This document shows, piece by piece, positions 23,674 through 46,897 of a DNA stretch of 64,000 nt. Position 1 is the first letter of the stretch. Each line of letters starts with the position of its first letter. The translations under genes and the position numbers were made by a program. This stretch comes from Sulfurimonas sp. HSL3-2 (lineage in GTDB: Bacteria; Campylobacterota; Campylobacteria; Campylobacterales; Sulfurimonadaceae). The stretch is taken from assembly GCF_039645965.1 (NCBI RefSeq), contig NZ_CP147917.1:434001-498000 (forward strand). Direction: 5' to 3'. A model generated the notes under the pieces. The model made no database searches, was not told where the DNA came from, and saw nothing but the letters and a program-made list of their open reading frames with translations.

Positions 23674-26241
23674 ATGAAATTTGAATTACGTGAGTTGATA
23701 AACGCATTGGATACAAAAACAAAGATACATCTTCAAAATGCTGCATCGAGATGTGTTGAGAGATCGGGAAACGAAATTTTAATCGAAGATGTTTTATTTG
23801 TGATGTGTGAAGATGAAAAATCATTGTTTAACGCACTTATGACACATTATAGCATTGAACAAGAATCAATGGTAGAAGCTCTACAACACGGTGTAAAAGT
23901 CAATGCAACTGAGAGCAGCAGTCCTGTCTTTTCCAATCTGCTTATTCAATTGCTGGAAGACTCGTATCTCATTGCAAAAATGCAGTTGAACGTGAATGAA
24001 ATCTCAGACGCGGCAATTATCTTATCATTGTTTGATAATGGTATCAAATACTCCAATACACAGTATTTCAGACTTTTGCAAAATATACCTTTTGATGAAG
24101 TGAAAAGTTTGATAGAAGGCTTAAATGAAGAAGCCGTGGAAAATGGCGAGGCGCAAAGAAAAAGCGCTAATAAGAAAATAAAAACTTCTGCAGAGTTAGA
24201 TAAATATACTACAAACCTAACACAACTTGCAAAAGATGGAGAGATCGACCCTGTACTTTGCCGAGACGATGAGATCAAACAGGCAATAGATATTTTACTG
24301 CGAAGAAGAAAGAACAATCCGATTATGGTTGGAGAAGCCGGAGTCGGTAAAACGGCAGTAGTCGAAGGTCTGGCATTAAAAGTGGTCAACCATGAGGTAC
24401 CGACACAACTCTACAATGCACAGATATTATCTCTTGATCTAGGTGCATTGCAAGCAGGAGCAGGAGTAAAAGGAGAGTTTGAAAGAAGACTTCAAGCGGT
24501 CATTAATGAAATACAAAACTCGCCGGAGTTTATTATTTTATTTATCGATGAAGCCCATACGCTAATCGGTGCAGGAGGCAATGAGGGAAGCGGAGATGCT
24601 GCGAACCTTTTAAAACCTGCATTGGCACGGGGACAACTAAGAACGATAGCTGCGACAACATGGCTTGAATATAGAAAATATTTTGAAAAAGATCCGGCAC
24701 TGTCGAGAAGATTTCAAAAGATCGATCTTTTAGAACCGACTGTTGATGAAGCCGTCACCATTTTACGAGGTATTGCGAAAAAGTATGAAGAGGTACATGA
24801 AGTCTATATAGAAGATGAAGCATTGCAAGCCGCTGCTTCTCTTTCGGCAAGATACATAACAGGCAGACAGCTTCCCGACAAAGCGATAGATGTTTTAGAC
24901 ACCGCTTGTGCCAATGTAAAGATAAGCCAGACCAATGTGCCGTTTGTACTGCAAAAGCTTTACACTCAGATAGAAGAGTTAAAAAGAAAAGAAGAGTTTT
25001 TAATACGAGACAACAATAGAGGAATAAAAGATTATTCTGCACAACTGACATCCCTTGTAGATGAGATCACTCAGCTTGAAGAAGAGGCTGTGATCATTAA
25101 AGAGTCTTGGCAGGAACAAAAAAGTGCAATGGAAGAGCTACAGCAAGCGCTCAAAGAGAATGAACACGATAAAGTCCGTCCTTTACATGAAAAGATCGAT
25201 TTACTGCATGAACAAAATAGATATATTCATAAACATGTAACAAAAGAGCAGATCGCAGAAGTTATCTCATCTTGGACAGGCATACCTCTTGGCAATATGA
25301 TCAATAAGCAGATCCAAAAAGTTATTGATCTGGAAAATTCTATGAAAGAAAGAATCATCGGACAAGAAGAAGCTATTGAATATATCAATCAATTTTTACA
25401 GATTTCCATGGCAGGACTTAAAAAAGAGAATGCTCCTGCAGGAGTTTTTTTACTTGTAGGTCCGAGCGGTGTGGGTAAAACGGAAACCGCATTAAGTATA
25501 GCCGACCTTATCTTCGGCGGTGAAAGATTTATTACGACGATCAATATGACCGAGTTCCAAGAAAAACATACTGTCTCAAGACTGATCGGTTCACCGCCGG
25601 GCTACATAGGATACGGAGAAGGCGGACAGCTTACGGACCCTGTTAGAGTCAAGCCTTATTCGGTGGTACTTTTAGATGAAATAGAAAAAGCCCATCCTGA
25701 AATTTTGAACCTTTTTTACCAGATGTTCGACAAAGGTGTTTTAAACGACGGCGAGGGACGTACCATCGACTTTAAAAACACAATCATCGTGATGACATCA
25801 AATTTAGCGACTGCTGAAATAACTGAATTGTGTACAAATGATCAAGACATTACAATGGATGAGATAAAAGAACATATAACACCTATTCTTTCTGCTTATC
25901 TCCAACCTGCATTGCTTGGAAGGATGAACATAATCCCATATCTCAATCTTAAAGATGAAGCCTTAAAAGAGATAACAAAACTCAAGTTACAGTTTATCCG
26001 TAATCAATTAGCCAAAAAAGAGATCGAGTTTCATTACGATGATTCACTTTTAGAATTTGTCGCTGCTTTGTCAAATGCACGAGATACGGGAGCTAGAAAT
26101 ATAGAGCTGATCATAAATAACAAAATTATGCCAAAGCTTTCAAAGATCATGTTAAATGCAGCGGTTGAAAAACAGATTATCAGACAGTTACATATCAATG
26201 TGGATGAAAACCAAGAAATCATTGTAAGGAGTGAGTTATGA
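23674..26241 (+). CDS. tssH: T6SS sheath-recycling AAA+ ATPase ClpV (TssH)
   Basis: An 855-residue Hsp100 protein that disassembles contracted TssB/TssC sheath. It has a ClpN-type N-terminal domain (about 1-150), a first AAA+ module with Walker A GEAGVGKT at about 219-226 and Walker B LFIDEAH, a coiled middle domain (about 430-540), and a second AAA+ module with GPSGVGKT at about 596-603 and VVLLDEIEKAHPE. Both ATP sites look intact. The N-terminal residues fit the ClpV subgroup rather than ClpB, and the position in the operon settles it. Its stop overlaps the next small gene by four bases. Confidence 0.95.
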   Translation: MKFELRELINALDTKTKIHLQNAASRCVERSGNEILIEDVLFVMCEDEKSLFNALMTHYSIEQESMVEALQHGVKVNATESSSPVFSNLLIQLLEDSYLIAKMQLNVNEISDAAIILSLFDNGIKYSNTQYFRLLQNIPFDEVKSLIEGLNEEAVENGEAQRKSANKKIKTSAELDKYTTNLTQLAKDGEIDPVLCRDDEIKQAIDILLRRRKNNPIMVGEAGVGKTAVVEGLALKVVNHEVPTQLYNAQILSLDLGALQAGAGVKGEFERRLQAVINEIQNSPEFIILFIDEAHTLIGAGGNEGSGDAANLLKPALARGQLRTIAATTWLEYRKYFEKDPALSRRFQKIDLLEPTVDEAVTILRGIAKKYEEVHEVYIEDEALQAAASLSARYITGRQLPDKAIDVLDTACANVKISQTNVPFVLQKLYTQIEELKRKEEFLIRDNNRGIKDYSAQLTSLVDEITQLEEEAVIIKESWQEQKSAMEELQQALKENEHDKVRPLHEKIDLLHEQNRYIHKHVTKEQIAEVISSWTGIPLGNMINKQIQKVIDLENSMKERIIGQEEAIEYINQFLQISMAGLKKENAPAGVFLLVGPSGVGKTETALSIADLIFGGERFITTINMTEFQEKHTVSRLIGSPPGYIGYGEGGQLTDPVRVKPYSVVLLDEIEKAHPEILNLFYQMFDKGVLNDGEGRTIDFKNTIIVMTSNLATAEITELCTNDQDITMDEIKEHITPILSAYLQPALLGRMNIIPYLNLKDEALKEITKLKLQFIRNQLAKKEIEFHYDDSLLEFVAALSNARDTGARNIELIINNKIMPKLSKIMLNAAVEKQIIRQLHINVDENQEIIVRSEL

Positions 26242-26375
26242 AAAAAAAATCTCTGTTTATCATGCTAAGTATGATTTTAGTGAGTATGTCATTTACGGCT
26301 TGTAGTTCTTTTAAAGAAACTTATAAACCCCTATATCAAGTAAAACCGACTGTAGAAAAAGTGGAGGAGAAATAA
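26238..26375 (+). CDS. 45-residue small lipoprotein encoded between tssH and fha
   Basis: ATG 26238 overlaps the tssH stop (ATGA), and the frame ends at TAA 26373-26375, three bases before fha. The peptide starts MKKKSLFIML, has a hydrophobic signal and a near-consensus lipobox (SFTAC, Cys22), and leaves a 24-residue charged tail beginning SSFKETYKP. The GTGAGTT sequence before the ATG is a weak site, but the coupling on both sides argues strongly for a real gene. Outer-membrane lipoproteins such as TagQ act in P. aeruginosa threonine-phosphorylation control; position beside fha suggests a similar link, as inference only. It is too short to find by a 60-residue cut-off. Confidence 0.7.
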   Translation: MKKKSLFIMLSMILVSMSFTACSSFKETYKPLYQVKPTVEKVEEK

Positions 26376-38871: not shown

Positions 38872-40211
38872 TGATACAAAAAATACTAATCAGTTTACTA
38901 TTTATAGGAAATGGTGTATTCGCCCAAGATAACATAGATATAGATGGATTTTTAAAAGAATTAAAGCCAGAGCCTACCGTAAACCTTTGTAAAGATAGTG
39001 TGAGAACAAATGAAGAATATATACAATGTCTTCAAGAAAAAACAGACAAAAATTCAACCATAGATAACGTAAACTTTTTAGCAGGTATATATGCAGTAAA
39101 CAAAGAGTATGACAAAGCTATAAAAACCTATAAAATAAATGTAGCAAAAGGAGATAAAAAAGCCACTTACTACCTAGCGGGAATCTACAACGAAGCACTA
39201 CAACAACACGATAAAGCGATTCCATATTTTGAGAAAATAAAAGATTATAAAGACAGTACCTGCCAAATTGGGGGTATAAAAGCGATAGTCAAATATGAGA
39301 GCTGGTTTAAGTTTTTAGATAAACGTAAAGCAAAAAAAAGAACATTAAAATTTTATGATGATGAGATAAAACAAGGAAATGTAAAAGCATACGGGTGTAA
39401 AGGACTTTACTATAATAGTTTAAAAGAGTATGAAGATGCAGAGAAAGCATTTTTAAAAGGCTTAGAGAAAGGAGATAAACAAAACCTCTTTTATCTTGGA
39501 AATTTTTACTATTACTACAAATACAACTTTGAAAAATCTATACACTACTATGAAGAGTCATATAAAGCAGGAAATATGCAAGCTGCTCATAACCTTGGGA
39601 ATATGTATGAGCGAAGTAAAGAGTATGACAAAGCGATACCTTGGTATATCCCCTCAGCTAAATCTGGGGATTTGAAATCTCTTTACAATTTAGCAAATAT
39701 ATATAGAGAAAATGGCAAGGAAGAGACTGCCTTAAAAATCTATAAAAAAGTAGGGGATTTAGGTTTAGAAGACGGATACCTTGCAGTTTGGACATACTAT
39801 ACAAAAACCACTAAACAATATAATAAAGCTATAGAATATTTAAAAGGATGCTATAACACAGGGCATAAAGAGTGTGCACGTTCAATTGGACGCATTTATG
39901 ATGAAGACCTTAAAGAGTATGACAAAGCAATCAAGTGGCATATTAGAGGGTATGAGATGGGAGATGCAGAGAGTGCATTTAATTTGGCTATGTTATATCA
40001 TGTAACACTTAAAGATTTTAAAAATGCAATCATCTGGTACAAAAAAGCTTCTGATATGGGATATGTAAAAGCTATGAATAATCTAGCAGTTCTTTACGAA
40101 GATGATCTAAAAGATAAAGTAAAAGCGATAGAGTGGTATAAAAAAGCAGCTGCTCAGGGACATAAAAAAGCAAAAAAACAACTAAAAAGGTTAGGAGAAC
40201 TCAATGAGTAA
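38868..40211 (+). CDS. secreted Sel1-repeat protein, candidate immunity protein upstream of the phospholipase effector
   Basis: A 447-residue protein with a signal peptide (about 1-20, ending VFAQ), then about eight Sel1/TPR repeats of the form AAHNLGNMYERSKEYDKAIPWY. It is a diverged relative of the lipoprotein encoded on the far side of the phospholipase gene. It overlaps both vgrG (four bases) and the effector gene (eight bases), so all three are coupled. Sel1-type periplasmic proteins neutralise T6SS phospholipases in other bacteria, hence the inference. An encoded upstream position is less usual than downstream. Confidence 0.75.
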   Translation: MMIQKILISLLFIGNGVFAQDNIDIDGFLKELKPEPTVNLCKDSVRTNEEYIQCLQEKTDKNSTIDNVNFLAGIYAVNKEYDKAIKTYKINVAKGDKKATYYLAGIYNEALQQHDKAIPYFEKIKDYKDSTCQIGGIKAIVKYESWFKFLDKRKAKKRTLKFYDDEIKQGNVKAYGCKGLYYNSLKEYEDAEKAFLKGLEKGDKQNLFYLGNFYYYYKYNFEKSIHYYEESYKAGNMQAAHNLGNMYERSKEYDKAIPWYIPSAKSGDLKSLYNLANIYRENGKEETALKIYKKVGDLGLEDGYLAVWTYYTKTTKQYNKAIEYLKGCYNTGHKECARSIGRIYDEDLKEYDKAIKWHIRGYEMGDAESAFNLAMLYHVTLKDFKNAIIWYKKASDMGYVKAMNNLAVLYEDDLKDKVKAIEWYKKAAAQGHKKAKKQLKRLGELNE

Positions 40212-42852
40212 ACGCTATGAAGGGGATGTTTATTATAATAATGATGAGATAGTTCACTTACAATCATTTGAAAATGTTGATGGTACGTTGTGTAAACAAG
40301 ATGATAGGACACGATTTGCATATATGATCGTTAGTGAAGATGAGGCTTTAAAAGCAGCCGGTTCACTCGATGATGATGTGAGTGTGCTTGATGCCGTAAA
40401 GGGTAGATATGCTCCGATCCTACTTGAAGCGGTAGAAAAGGAGAAAACGCAAGTCTCTAAAGCCCTTAGTTTAGCACCCAATGAAACTCTTATAAAGAAC
40501 AAACTTATCCATCTTGTTTCTATCCCTGCATATAATGTTACATGTACAGATGATATACTCTATGTTTTAAAGTACCATAAAGCTAGAAAAAACTTAAACA
40601 ATGCAGATAAAAAAGGCTCTGAGAAAAAAAATGTCTCGTATCTGAAAAAAAATCTACAAGATTGTAAAGCGATGGTCTCACTTGAGCTTACACAGTTAAA
40701 AAAAGAGAATCCAAGTAAAAAAGAGCAAAACCCGTATGTCTTAATATCTATGCCATATGTTTACAATGCCTCTTTGGATAAAAACTATCGTATAACAGAG
40801 TATAAGTGTGTAGATTATCAAGATCAGGTAACACTCTCTCTGATACCAAAAGTAAGAGTAGAATATGGTGTGTTTTTTGATGGTACAAATAACAATATGT
40901 ACAATATAAACTTTTACCAAGATTATAAAACTTACTTAAATAAACAAACAAAATATATAAAAGAGAATTTTTTACCTTATAAAAATAAATTAGATTCAAG
41001 AAATGAAAATGCTTATAAAACTTTCGCAGATTATATAGCAACCCACCCAGATCCGCAAAAAACTCCTCGTATTATGAATATGCTCCGAGATGAGATCATT
41101 ACCGATGTAAGATATTTTGAGGAAAGTTCTACAAAAAAACACAATTTTGGGAGCGATAAAGCCTCCAAACATAGTGATAAGGTATTTGACTTTTTATATG
41201 AGTTGCGAGACACCTTGACAAATAAAGATGAGAGTTTTGGTGAACGTTTGAGTGACTGGTGGAATAATAATTCAGATGTTAAGGGCACTTCAGCAGAGGT
41301 CAAAAACTTTGTGATCAATCAACTTCTCCCTAGTGGTACGAACGACAGTTATATTAATGGTTACACAAATGTAAAAAGATTGTATGAACATTATATAGGT
41401 GATGATAGGCTGATACTAAAAAAGGATAAAAAAGTTTATGAACACTCTTTGAGACGTTTTAAACTTTATGCTTCAGGGTCAGGAACGATTGATCCTGTAG
41501 ATAGAAAAAAATTTGATAATGATTCATTTATTGGTTTGGGCTTAGGTGGTGGTATAACAGGTGTACAAGCACATATCGTTTACACATGTGATAAGATAGT
41601 AGAACAACTAAGAGAAAAGAATATATCTCATATAGATGAACTTGTTTTAGATGTTTTTGGTTTCAGCCGAGGAGCGACAGAAGTAAGACACTTTATCTGT
41701 ACGATCATGAAAGGGTTTGAACTCTTAAAAAAAGATGGTTATGAAAAATATGCACTCAATTGTGATGTTGAGAAAAAAAATATCTTTAGCGGTTTATTTC
41801 CAGGAGATAACGGTGTATATATCAAAATAGCCAACAGACACTACTTCAATCCACTTTGCACAGATGTTGAAAGTATAACTGTTACAGTTGATGCAGGTGG
41901 TAGAAGTGCAGAGGTACCTATAAAAAATCCTTATTATAAAAAAGCAAATATCGCTATAAGTAGTATATCATTTCGACATGCAAATATAGGGGATACCGTA
42001 ACCCATTTTGGTTTAATGCAAAGCAATGACTCAAAAGATTTAAACATACATTTCAATAAAGATAAAATAGGTTCAGTTTTTCATCTTATGGCGATGGATG
42101 AATATCGTTACAACTTTGAAGCTCACTCTATTTTTGAAAACAGTTATGAGGGGATACTGCATTCCGAAGGTAACTTTAAAGAGTGGTTTGTCCCGGGAGC
42201 TCATGCTGATGTAGGCGGTGGTTATGAAAATTCTCCCGCAGATGAAACAGTCATGTTTCCAAAGGAAGTCAGATTCTCGGAAAAAACAATTTTAATGAGA
42301 CCAGCCCGATATTACGACTTTATCAAATGGAACAATAAATATGGTTGGATTGACAAAAAGCTTGTCACAAAAGAATCTGATTTTAAAAAGATATATACAT
42401 CAAACAATATTCATAAAACAGGATTTTTCTATGAAGAGGACTACTTACCTTCAAATTCATTAGAATTAATAACAGGGAAAAGAAAAAGAACTTTTTATAT
42501 GCATAGAACACACCTCTCATGGGAATATGAACTTGTAACATTGAAACTTTTTCACGATGCTGCAGTCGCTGAGGGAGTAGATGTGCCTTTTATTGATATT
42601 ATGGATAAGTATAAATTTAAAAATCAAAAACAAGATACAGATTATTTACAAAAGTTATATGACACACTGAAAACCGGAAGAGCATTAGAAGAAGAGCGAC
42701 ATATTGAACTAAAACAAAAATATCTGCACCACTCTTCAAATGAAGATTCTATAGCAAATCCTCCATCGACAGAGGGCTACAGCATAGTTTATGGACAAAG
42801 GGTTATTTATGGTTCAAAAGGTAAAAAGTTTCCTTATAAAGATTTTTCATAG
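40204..42852 (+). CDS. T6SS phospholipase effector (Tle1-like, DUF2235 alpha/beta hydrolase)
   Basis: An 882-residue cytoplasmic-type protein without signal peptide. Residues about 1-215 are an unassigned N-terminal region, possibly for VgrG docking. The DUF2235/Tle1 hydrolase follows: GVFFDGTNNN near 220, the nucleophile elbow GFSRGA with Ser near 488 (GxSxG), and WFVPGAHADVGGGYENS near 662, which carries the conserved His/Asp region. Between the first block and the Ser lies a long insertion (about 240-440). Predicted to hydrolyse membrane phospholipids of target cells. Encoded after an extended VgrG and flanked by Sel1 immunity candidates. The catalytic Asp and His were not pinned down. Confidence 0.85.
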   Translation: MSKRYEGDVYYNNDEIVHLQSFENVDGTLCKQDDRTRFAYMIVSEDEALKAAGSLDDDVSVLDAVKGRYAPILLEAVEKEKTQVSKALSLAPNETLIKNKLIHLVSIPAYNVTCTDDILYVLKYHKARKNLNNADKKGSEKKNVSYLKKNLQDCKAMVSLELTQLKKENPSKKEQNPYVLISMPYVYNASLDKNYRITEYKCVDYQDQVTLSLIPKVRVEYGVFFDGTNNNMYNINFYQDYKTYLNKQTKYIKENFLPYKNKLDSRNENAYKTFADYIATHPDPQKTPRIMNMLRDEIITDVRYFEESSTKKHNFGSDKASKHSDKVFDFLYELRDTLTNKDESFGERLSDWWNNNSDVKGTSAEVKNFVINQLLPSGTNDSYINGYTNVKRLYEHYIGDDRLILKKDKKVYEHSLRRFKLYASGSGTIDPVDRKKFDNDSFIGLGLGGGITGVQAHIVYTCDKIVEQLREKNISHIDELVLDVFGFSRGATEVRHFICTIMKGFELLKKDGYEKYALNCDVEKKNIFSGLFPGDNGVYIKIANRHYFNPLCTDVESITVTVDAGGRSAEVPIKNPYYKKANIAISSISFRHANIGDTVTHFGLMQSNDSKDLNIHFNKDKIGSVFHLMAMDEYRYNFEAHSIFENSYEGILHSEGNFKEWFVPGAHADVGGGYENSPADETVMFPKEVRFSEKTILMRPARYYDFIKWNNKYGWIDKKLVTKESDFKKIYTSNNIHKTGFFYEEDYLPSNSLELITGKRKRTFYMHRTHLSWEYELVTLKLFHDAAVAEGVDVPFIDIMDKYKFKNQKQDTDYLQKLYDTLKTGRALEEERHIELKQKYLHHSSNEDSIANPPSTEGYSIVYGQRVIYGSKGKKFPYKDFS

Positions 42853-42935
42853 ATGTATGAACTAGAACACATCATCCGTTACCTGCGAAATTTTGATATC
42901 AACGAAGAAACTGTAAAAAAGTGTTATGCGATGAT
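42853..42935 (+). repeat. 83-bp direct repeat, copy 1
   Basis: Matches 44052-44134 with one mismatch (C at 42903 is T in copy 2). It begins exactly at the ATG that follows the phospholipase stop codon and ends where the lipoprotein coding sequence starts. It fuses 26 foreign codons in frame ahead of the lipoprotein. Confidence 0.95.
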
Positions 42936-44040
42936 GAATAAAAGATCGATGTTTTTACTTGCTTTTCTTGTTCTGTCAGGGTGTGCTCACATTAAACCCG
43001 TAGAACTCAAAAAGAGCAGTTACGACATAGAAAAATGCAACAAGACAAGCTACACCCCTGCTGACCTTCAAAGCTATGAAACTCTCATAAAACAAGGAGA
43101 GCTTCAAGGCTATAATTGTGAAGGTATTTACTATGTTAGAGAAAAGAACTACGAAAAAGCCAAAGAGTATTTCCAAAAAGGAGCAGACAAAGGAAGTATA
43201 GAGTCTTACGCTCAGCTTGGAAGTCTTTACTCACACTTTTTACAACAACCCGAAAAATCGTTTTCTTACTATGAAACGGCAGCAAATGCAGGACACGTAA
43301 AAGCTGCACATAACCTCGGAGTGGAATACGACAGAAAACTTGACTACAAAAACGCCCTCAAGTGGTACCAAAAAGCAGCAGACAAAGGTAATGTTTACTC
43401 TCTTCTAGCCGTCGGGCAGATTTATAGAAAAGAGGGAAAATATGAAAAAGCCGTACAAACCTTTGAAAAGATTGGAGAGCTTGGAAATTCTAGAGGTTAC
43501 TTTAACTTAGGGGTGCTTTACTATAAAGAAAAAGAGTTCTATGATATAAATAAATCCAATACCTACTTTTTAAAATGTTACAAAATGGGTGACGGTGGCT
43601 GTGCTGCTGCTTTAGGTACATACTATGAAGAGGACAAAAAAGATTATAAAAAAGCTATAGAGTGGTATAAAAAAGGTTTTGAACTAGGAAGTAAAGACTC
43701 TGTTACAAGACTAGGGCTTTTATATGTTGACATATTAAAAGATTATAAAAAAGGAATTTACTGGTACACCCAAGGGTATGAAAAATTAAATAACCTAGAT
43801 TGTGCTTTTAGCATAGCTTTAACATACCAAGATTTAAAAGAGGATGATAACGCTGTCTCTTGGTTTTTAAAAGCACATAAAGGAGGGTATAAAGATGCAG
43901 CATACGGGCTTGGATATTTATACCAATATGATTTAAAAGATAAAGAAAAGGCTATTGAATGGTATAAAAAATCCTTAAACATAGGTTCACAATATGATGC
44001 AGCTGCCCAACGTAAATTAAAAGAATTAGGGGTTAAATAA
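42853..44040 (+). CDS. Sel1-repeat lipoprotein, candidate immunity protein for the phospholipase (chimeric 5' end)
   Basis: The open frame encodes 395 residues, but the first 26 (MYELEHIIRY onward) are copied from the gene at 44052. At residues 27-28 two Met codons (42931, 42934) start a normal lipoprotein signal, MNKRSMFLLAFLVLSGC, whose Cys would be lipidated. The rest holds about seven Sel1 repeats, for example AAHNLGVEYDRKLDYKNALKWYQKAADKGN. I think the functional start is 42931 or 42934, although no good ribosome binding site precedes it; translation may instead restart at 42853, which abuts the effector's TAG. Predicted periplasmic protection against the phospholipase. Confidence 0.75.
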   Translation: MYELEHIIRYLRNFDINEETVKKCYAMMNKRSMFLLAFLVLSGCAHIKPVELKKSSYDIEKCNKTSYTPADLQSYETLIKQGELQGYNCEGIYYVREKNYEKAKEYFQKGADKGSIESYAQLGSLYSHFLQQPEKSFSYYETAANAGHVKAAHNLGVEYDRKLDYKNALKWYQKAADKGNVYSLLAVGQIYRKEGKYEKAVQTFEKIGELGNSRGYFNLGVLYYKEKEFYDINKSNTYFLKCYKMGDGGCAAALGTYYEEDKKDYKKAIEWYKKGFELGSKDSVTRLGLLYVDILKDYKKGIYWYTQGYEKLNNLDCAFSIALTYQDLKEDDNAVSWFLKAHKGGYKDAAYGLGYLYQYDLKDKEKAIEWYKKSLNIGSQYDAAAQRKLKELGVK

Positions 44041-44051
44041 GGAGAGGTCTA

Positions 44052-44134
44052 ATGTATGAACTAGAACACATCATCCGTTACCTGCGAAATTTTGATATCA
44101 ATGAAGAAACTGTAAAAAAGTGTTATGCGATGAT
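44052..44134 (+). repeat. 83-bp direct repeat, copy 2
   Basis: Second copy of the 42853-42935 repeat, here forming the natural 5' end of the 102-residue gene. This copy has a strong AAGGAGAGG site immediately upstream, so it is probably the ancestral one. Confidence 0.95.
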
Positions 44135-44360
44135 ACCTGATCCTTACAGTAAAGTAGAATCGCAGGATAAGTTATATATCGAATGTAAAACACAGTATGA
44201 CATTAATACCATAGGTTCTTTTATTGAAAATATTACGAGCGGCATAGAAAAAGGCTATATAGTAGATGCCATCAAAAAGACGGCGTATCAGTTTAATTAT
44301 GTGAGGGAGATCCCCCGCATCGCTTTTTATGTCGTCGTTTTAAGTAAGCTTGTAAAATAA
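44052..44360 (+). CDS. 102-residue protein of unknown function at the end of the effector cluster
   Basis: A soluble small protein (MYELEHIIRYLRNFDINEE, then IPDPYSKVES and TSGIEKGYIV). No known domain is recognised. It has an excellent ribosome binding site and ends 9 bases before the convergent TetR gene. Its 5' end is duplicated ahead of the Sel1 lipoprotein. It may be a former neighbour of the phospholipase gene, for instance an adaptor or second immunity protein, or a toxin-module remnant. Confidence 0.6.
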   Translation: MYELEHIIRYLRNFDINEETVKKCYAMIPDPYSKVESQDKLYIECKTQYDINTIGSFIENITSGIEKGYIVDAIKKTAYQFNYVREIPRIAFYVVVLSKLVK

Positions 44361-45033: not shown

Positions 45034-45810
45034 TTATGCAGACATTTTATTAGCTATTTTTAAAGATATATCCTGATATTTAGCATCGCAGATTCTTTCT
45101 AGTTCATCCCAAATCATAGCTCTTAGATTTAAAGAGTCCATTACAGCTTCTTCGATTTCTTTGTGCTCGTTTTCATCTGTATTCATACATAAGACCGTTG
45201 TAGCATCATCGCTATGGTCTTGATCTCTTTCCCCATGACGATTCCAAAACCCCATATCTATATCAGAACCGAAGCACGCTTCTATGCCTTGAACCAAATA
45301 TGGAAAATTATTCGGTATAGTCAATTCTCCGCCAAAACCGAGCCATGAACAACCGATGGCAAATGATTTATTAGCGACTGCATCGAAAATAGTATTGTTT
45401 AGAAGACGGATACTTGAGATAGTTTCTGTTTTCTCCAATCCTTGTTGAGAAACCCCTATAGAATCTAACATAGTCAGGTACAACACAGGATGACAATTTT
45501 TCAGTGTGTTATGTCCCATCTCTTCATAAAGGTTGTCCATAAGCATGAAACGACTTTTGATATCCGGTGCACTTCCCATTAATTTACAGATCGCTGCTGT
45601 AAAAGGCATCACAATTTTTCCAAACTGTTTGAGTACAAATAAAACGCCCTCTTGGGTATACGTGTTACTTGCAAATTTTTTTAAAAAAGGATGCTCAAAT
45701 ACGGCATGCCCTCCAACTTTTTTCTCTAAGTTTGACAAGAATTGATAGTTCCGTTGAAAGCGAATACTATTTAATTCTTCCTCATTGTACGGTGATAATA
45801 TATTTTCCAT
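45034..45810 (-). CDS. heme-oxygenase-like diiron protein (iron-containing redox enzyme family)
   Basis: A 258-residue helical protein. Ligand-type residues fall in the pattern of heme-oxygenase-like diiron oxidases/oxygenases: NLYEEMGHNTLKNCHP near 93-108 supplies Glu and His, and FWNRHGERDQDHSDDA near 190-205 supplies His and Asp. Members of this family carry out diverse oxidative chemistry and the substrate cannot be read from sequence. It is divergent from a GlxA/AraC-type regulator gene 111 bases away, and followed by a TetR gene, so it is probably inducible. Confidence 0.75.
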   Translation of the reverse strand: MENILSPYNEEELNSIRFQRNYQFLSNLEKKVGGHAVFEHPFLKKFASNTYTQEGVLFVLKQFGKIVMPFTAAICKLMGSAPDIKSRFMLMDNLYEEMGHNTLKNCHPVLYLTMLDSIGVSQQGLEKTETISSIRLLNNTIFDAVANKSFAIGCSWLGFGGELTIPNNFPYLVQGIEACFGSDIDMGFWNRHGERDQDHSDDATTVLCMNTDENEHKEIEEAVMDSLNLRAMIWDELERICDAKYQDISLKIANKMSA

Positions 45811-45921
45811 TTTCTTTGTCTCCTTGTTAAGAAATTCAAGGCAAATTATGTAGGAAATCCCTATAATCTACAAGAGGTATATCTGCCATAATCGATGCCA
45901 AAAATGACAAAAGGAGCTTAA

Positions 45922-46897
45922 ATGAAAAAAAAAACCTATAAATATAGCGATTGTCAACTATGATAAAGTCTTAATATCTTCTCTTCTCGGTATTGTAGAC
46001 ATATTTTCAATAGTTAATAATTTCTGTTTAGATGCTAGTTGTTTATATTATTTCAACATAGAAATATTACATACTGATGAAGCCATTAACAATTTTAACC
46101 TTTCAATAAACATTGACAGTAAACCGCTGCGGAATGATGCTGTTTACGATCTAATCATTATTCCACCCATAATCGATATAGAGTTTAATTTCGGAACGAA
46201 TGAACGACTGATAAGATGGTTAAATATTATGTATAGCAAACAAAGCATCATATCTTCTGTATGCGTCGGTGCTTATGTACTGGCACAATCGGGTTTGTTA
46301 GATAATAAATATGCGACAAGTCACTGGGTAGTAGAATCAATAATCAAACAAAACTTTCCTAAAGTAAAGTTAGATGTTAATAAGTTGATTGTTGAAGATG
46401 ACAATATAATAACTGCCGGAGGAGCGAGTGCATATATTTACCTGTGTCTATACATAGTAAGAAAGTTTATCTCTAGTAAAGCGGCATATACTTGTGCGAA
46501 CTATTTAGGGGTTGATGCAGGGAAAAAAAGTCAGCAGCACTATAAAGACCTTGCACAAATAGCGACTAATAATGATCACGACATCGAAAGACTCATTTCA
46601 TGGATTAAAAATAACTTTTCAAAAAGTATAACACTTAAGGATATGTCAAAAAGAATATCTGTCAGTGAACGGACGCTCATAAGAAAATTTAAAAAATCTA
46701 CAGGCGATCTGCCAAATAACTTTATCCAAAAACTTCGAGTTCAAAAGGCAAAAGAACTTTTAGTAAATAGTACGGATAGTTTTGAACATATTACTTATCT
46801 GGTCGGTTACACTAATCCTTCAACATTTAGACAAGTATTTAAAAAGACGACAAACTTAAATCCTATAGAGTATAAAAGATTGTTTCTTGCAAAATAA
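45922..46897 (+). pseudogene. GlxA-family AraC-type regulator, frameshifted at an A10 tract
   Basis: ATG 45922 has a good AGGAG site, but after A10 (45925-45934) the frame stops at 45961. Reading on in the +1 frame gives a complete regulator: a DJ-1/PfpI-like domain (PINIAIVNYDKVLISSLLG, VYDLIIIPP, SSVCVGAYVLAQSG with the conserved Cys) and a C-terminal AraC helix-turn-helix (ITLKDMSKRISVSERTLIRK and YTNPSTFRQVFKK). With nine As the protein would be 324 residues. As it stands only the part from ATG 46229 (222 residues) is open. This could be a pseudogene, a phase-variable allele, expression by slippage, or a sequencing error. Confidence 0.75.

Follow-up and report, generated by a model that had tools for sequence, protein, structure and literature searches.

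A regulator gene of the GlxA type is out of frame in the genome sequence through a run of ten A directly behind its start codon. The best explanation, which we give about an even chance of being right, is a one-base expansion of an ordinary ATG-A9 start that would leave the gene off in the sequenced clone, reversibly in principle and perhaps with some leakage, and would not constitute an evolved switch. Speaking for such a slip are the single lesion, the presence of both regulator domains, the position of this tract as the sole A10 as against 32 A9 tracts, and an intact, conserved upstream block. The window referred to below is the whole stretch of DNA that was analyzed (64,000 nt).

The start codon (ATG, 45922-45924) is followed immediately, on the plus strand, by the A10 tract (45925-45934), and the sequence from 45910 to 45949 reads AAAGGAG CTTAA ATG A10 CCTATAAATATAGCG. 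The features of the reading frame are the following:

45910-45916, plus strand: ribosome-binding site AAAGGAG, 5 bases 5' of the ATG, as read from the sequence
45922-45963, plus strand: start codon and 13-codon frame as written, MKKKTYKYSDCQL, then TGA
45925-45934, plus strand: A10 tract, the sole A10/T10 of the genome; A9 or A12 restores the frame
45935-46897, plus strand: intact remainder of the GlxA/AraC-type regulator gene, 320 codons plus stop

When the tract-length variants were translated, frame 0 as written gave 13 residues (MKKKTYKYSDCQL*), whereas A9 and A12 both gave the full-length product (324 and 325 residues, respectively) and A8 and A11 ran into a stop after 5 and 6 residues. 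The tract thus toggles the frame as in a contingency gene (on with A9 or A12; off with A8, A10 or A11), and it has the make-up of a transcriptional-slippage tract, i.e. an A-tract of about nine or more from which a small slip, here to A9 or A12, reaches the gain frame. Alternative start codons were rejected, as no ATG, GTG or TTG is found in the long frame upstream of 46229 and a TGA (45923-45925) shuts the frame upstream; ribosomal -1 slippage was likewise rejected, since it equals the reading of A11 with its stop after 6 residues. According to the first-pass annotation, removal of one A restores a 324-residue regulator, the lesion is confined to the homopolymer, and about 970 bases carry no other defect. 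This description of the locus was confirmed in every detail that could be checked: the A9 translation carries both Pfam domains above cut-off, the long frame (45935-46897) is open throughout without a second lesion in the approximately 970 bases, and the remainder of the gene, the ribosome site and the upstream block are all intact.

The two domains of the restored protein, each matched above its Pfam cut-off, are located as follows:

46136-46462, plus strand: DJ-1/PfpI sensor-like domain (PF01965, 44.9 bits)
46646-46879, plus strand: AraC-type helix-turn-helix domain, HTH_18 (PF12833, 69.1 bits)

An N-terminal DJ-1/PfpI domain combined with a C-terminal AraC-type helix-turn-helix is the arrangement of the GlxA-type AraC regulators; a continuous frame from the start codon is missing, as the sequence as written yields 13 codons and A9 is needed. 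With the GlxA/FtrA-type regulators in general the gene shares both domains and a length of about 320 residues; in contrast to them, its reading frame is broken as written. FtrA was the best NCBIfam model for the regulator (170 bits), a score well under the FtrA cut-off of 425 bits.

The A10 tract is the longest A/T run of the window, in which runs of seven, eight, nine and ten bases number 64, 18, 1 and 1, and it is the only A10/T10 in the 2,240,048 bases of the genome. A simulated sequence of the same size (one sequence, generated with an order-3 Markov model of the window) contained about 340 runs of at least ten, compared with this one in the genome. Because ten-base A/T windows amount to 0-4 per genome in seven same-genus genomes, long A/T runs are strongly avoided in the lineage; the strong depletion of runs of nine or more in the genome, together with its lack of G8/C8 tracts, is partly common to the relatives. 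The tract is therefore exceptional, but its rarity leaves the reason for its presence unexplained. Nine-base A/T windows number 34 genome-wide, i.e. 32 A9/T9 tracts and the regulator A10. Based on their ORF context, all 32 A9 tracts lie between genes or within frames that run on uninterrupted, without any visible split of a long gene; of two inspected by hand, one (L110) is a mid-gene tract and the other (L118) belongs to a small in-frame protein. An in-frame ATG-A9 start is present in two other genes, namely a lipoprotein-like gene of 45 residues at 26238-26375 (plus strand), which offers a natural slippage control tract, and L118, coding for a 62-residue protein. As two other genes begin with ATG-A9 in frame, slippage by one base in an ordinary MKKK start would be enough to produce the regulator allele. 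G8/C8 tracts were found nowhere in the genome; polyG/C contingency loci were thus ruled out, and the genome is unlike one rich in contingency loci.

With regard to mismatch repair, the MutL model PF01119 had no match in the genome and was found in 11 of 14 control genomes, so that canonical MutSL repair looks incomplete. The one MutS of the genome (L129; G000:C1:739838-742915) is a protein of 1025 residues with domains I, III and V and a C-terminal HNH nuclease, which is the MutS7 layout (PMC3166940). Together with G+C content and genome size, the MutS7 type suggests a Sulfurimonas-like member of the Campylobacterota as the source. Measured against the weak repair expected around a contingency gene, the picture is divided: MutL was not found, yet a MutS7-type MutS is present. 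This MutS with its HNH nuclease may limit slippage, and to that extent it counts against the slip reading.

Orthologs of the regulator were searched in 100 relatives and then in 228 genomes of the family. Five were detected in the 228 genomes, the gene being present in 6 of 228 if this genome (G000) is included; it was not found in the other same-genus genomes. Identities to the regulator were 61% (G164), 53% (G104), 50% (G057) and 41% (G039), and the ortholog of G047 is a fragment at a contig end. No A-run was present at the start of the gene in G164, G104, G047 and G039, while the start in G057 is unclear; the A10 tract is therefore specific to this genome among the orthologs with readable starts, and a retained tract, as would support a contingency gene, was not observed. 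The additional lesions that the first-pass annotation had named as a refutation were not found. In a five-way alignment, of 100 columns invariant among the remaining four sequences, the regulator has changed at 13 (corresponding counts for the others: 10, 6, 9 and 21), and its branch length of 0.34 compares with 0.22 (G164), 0.35 (G104) and 0.38 (G057). By these comparisons the regulator appears to be without sign of long-standing relaxed constraint or obvious decay. Closer relatives were absent among viral contigs, a scan of genome contigs for them returned one distant match, and the regulators returned by a plasmid search were at most 32% identical across the greater part of the protein.

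The gene divergent from the regulator and the conserved blocks upstream of the latter are:

45034-45810, minus strand: haem-oxygenase-like diiron oxidase gene (CADD/BesC-like), probable target of the regulator (PF14518, PDB CADD relatives, pair in G164)
45862-45876, plus strand: conserved TATAAT...CAAGAG block, putative promoter -10 region of the regulator gene (alignment)
45884-45909, plus strand: conserved block TGCCA-N6-ATGC-N6-TGACA with boxes 21 bp apart, putative AraC-type operator (ortholog alignment)

The neighbor matched PF14518 with 53.2 bits (cut-off 28.9), as a haem-oxygenase-like iron redox enzyme does, and shares with the CADD/BesC diiron oxidases this domain and a detectable, distant similarity to the CADD and BesC structures. 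It differs from them in that its score with the CADD model TIGR04305 (55.8 bits) lies under the cut-off of 200, which places it outside the CADD family proper, and in that its G164 relative carries a fused SnoaL-like domain. The divergent arrangement of the regulator and a homolog of the neighbor (71% identity over 256 residues) is seen again in G164; in 100 other relatives, a set without G164, no homolog of the neighbor was found. In G104 and G047 an amidohydrolase gene and in G039 an HD-domain gene is divergent from the regulator. The divergent pairing in two genera supports the diiron oxidase gene as the probable target of the regulator. This target had been proposed in the first-pass annotation, and the recurrence of the pair in G164 (71% and 61% identity for the neighbor and the regulator) strengthens the proposal as far as the gene arrangement is concerned, while the regulation itself is what we infer from it.

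The upstream regions of G000, G164, G104, G047 and G039 could be aligned with 25 invariant columns, although the divergent genes differ; the conserved order comprises a TATNAT-like element, an AAGAG or AGTG-like element, a TGNCA-like box, ATGC and a GACA box. The block at 45884-45909 stands just 5' of the ribosome site and is intact in G000. AraC-family sites are usually laid out as direct repeats about 21 bp apart, and because the repeats of this block have such a spacing, it is probably the regulator's own operator, as predicted from the sequence. The pattern TGCCA-N6-ATGC-N6-TGACA has its sole exact match in the window at 45884-45909, the pattern having been drawn from these same sequences; its core also matches L004, L005 and L133. 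The candidate operator recurs in the upstream regions L132, L133, L005 and L004, where the orthologs are divergent from three kinds of enzyme genes. A simple promoter scan did not call the 45862-45876 block and performed no better than shuffles.

According to the explanation we prefer, the ancestral start of the DJ-1/PfpI-AraC (GlxA-type) regulator would have been an in-frame ATG-A9 (MKKK...), which a presumably recent slip in replication extended by one A. Translation in the sequenced clone would then stop after 13 codons and the regulator would be essentially off. The A10, which belongs to the length class most prone to slipping in this genome, could slip back and the frame be regained, so the state would be reversible in principle; RNA-polymerase slippage at A10 might in addition supply some in-frame message (A9 or A12) as leakage. 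When produced, the regulator would control itself and the diiron oxidase gene. As to the ancestral length, A9 is what we infer, no same-genus genome having the gene.

An assembly error, or decay too recent for other lesions, would give the identical sequence. Long homopolymers are the weakest places of assemblies, and a consensus error, with A9 as the true sequence and the gene simply intact, is unlikely but is the alternative to be taken most seriously: the A10 is the longest A/T tract of the genome, and the gene is otherwise undamaged with its control region intact. Against it stand the A9 tracts, 0 of 32 of which visibly break a long gene, and an assembly of one contig (2,240,048 bases) with 99.98% estimated completeness; because of both, homopolymer errors are not widespread, and on the evidence of the 32 A9 tracts a widespread assembly error was ruled out. 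A real one-base slip, at an even chance, is in consequence favored over a consensus error, which we hold to be unlikely. Ordinary loss of the gene, of which the A10 would be the first stage in a regulator no longer needed and with more damage to come, is the least probable of all readings considered: it would accord with the sporadic occurrence of the gene (6 of 228 family genomes, its own genus otherwise without it), but not with about 970 bases that are otherwise free of lesions, nor with a control region that is both conserved and undamaged.

A farther-reaching possibility is that the sole A10 of a purged genome is kept as a stochastic switch, by DNA and/or RNA-polymerase slippage, on a self-regulated GlxA-type activator controlling the haem-oxygenase-like diiron oxidase; we regard this as improbable. 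More improbable still is evolved phase variation, in which selection keeps the tract long and regulator and diiron oxidase are switched on and off in the population. The placement right behind the ATG, a tract of a length that occurs only once in a genome avoiding such runs, the apparent lack of MutL and the precedent of the A/T tracts of flgR in C. jejuni (PMC3930126) would fit such a device; however, the tract is in no ortholog with a readable start, the genome has no G8/C8 contingency tracts and is depleted in A/T runs of nine or more, MutS7 is present, and what the gene encodes is no surface structure but a cytoplasmic regulator acting on a probable metabolic gene. Marginally behind it in probability comes programmed transcriptional slippage, with A10 as the working allele and A9/A12 messages providing a steady low dose of regulator. 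Indeed, A10 is within the length range of demonstrated bacterial poly(A) slippage (PMC4256274, PMC5009743), A9 and A12 both yield full-length product, and Shigella mxiE provides an example of a regulator gene whose expression involves slippage (PMC5009743); but the tract is missing from all orthologs with readable starts, which speaks against a conserved use, and the 13-residue alternative product is without apparent function. Of the origin by phase variation or slippage put forward in the first-pass annotation, the one lesion confined to a homopolymer stands, whereas an evolved device is disfavored by an unconserved tract and the missing G8/C8 tracts.

Inactivation by frameshift in a 5' poly(A) tract, to which the preferred one-base slip amounts, is already known from inlA, flgR and tssM. 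In inlA of Listeria monocytogenes, A7 is in frame, A6 truncates the product after 8 residues, and A6 changes to A7 at about 5.5e-7 (PMC2831843); the near-5' A-tract, the one-base change leading to a product of few residues and the intact remaining gene are common to both cases, while inlA differs by its A6/A7 alleles with measured reversion and strain polymorphism, as opposed to an A10 versus a deduced A9 in a regulator known from one sequence. In flgR of C. jejuni, with laboratory switching observed at its A/T tracts (PMC3930126), a transcription regulator gene has likewise lost its frame through a one-base change in an A/T homopolymer, but the tract lies inside the coding sequence, whereas here it directly follows the start codon and is known from one sequence only. 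For the A11 of tssM in Citrobacter rodentium, RNA polymerase slippage of about 20-25% was reported (PMC4256274), and a recoding review cites runs of 9 A or T for slippage and, as a further case of slippage, Shigella mxiE (PMC5009743). The tract described here resembles those of tssM and mxiE as a long poly(A)/poly(T) run where RNA polymerase slippage can restore the frame; in contrast to tssM with its measured slippage, it is known from DNA alone and is unconserved.

If the A10 is real, the locus would provide a clean natural case of one slip-prone tract controlling a transcription regulator in a genome with no MutL and a MutS7-type MutS. The divergent regulator/diiron-oxidase pair together with the candidate operator, perhaps the more useful outcome, offers a testable site and gene for an uncharacterized enzyme.

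Elsewhere in the window, two adjoining genes on the plus strand (42853-44040 and 44052-44360) share identical first 27 residues (MYELEHIIRYLRNFDINEETVKKCYAM), which in the former are followed by a lipoprotein-like Sel1-repeat protein. A Tle1-like phospholipase effector gene (40204-42852) is located just before them, and because of this position the pair resembles the outcome of a partial duplication within an effector/immunity locus.
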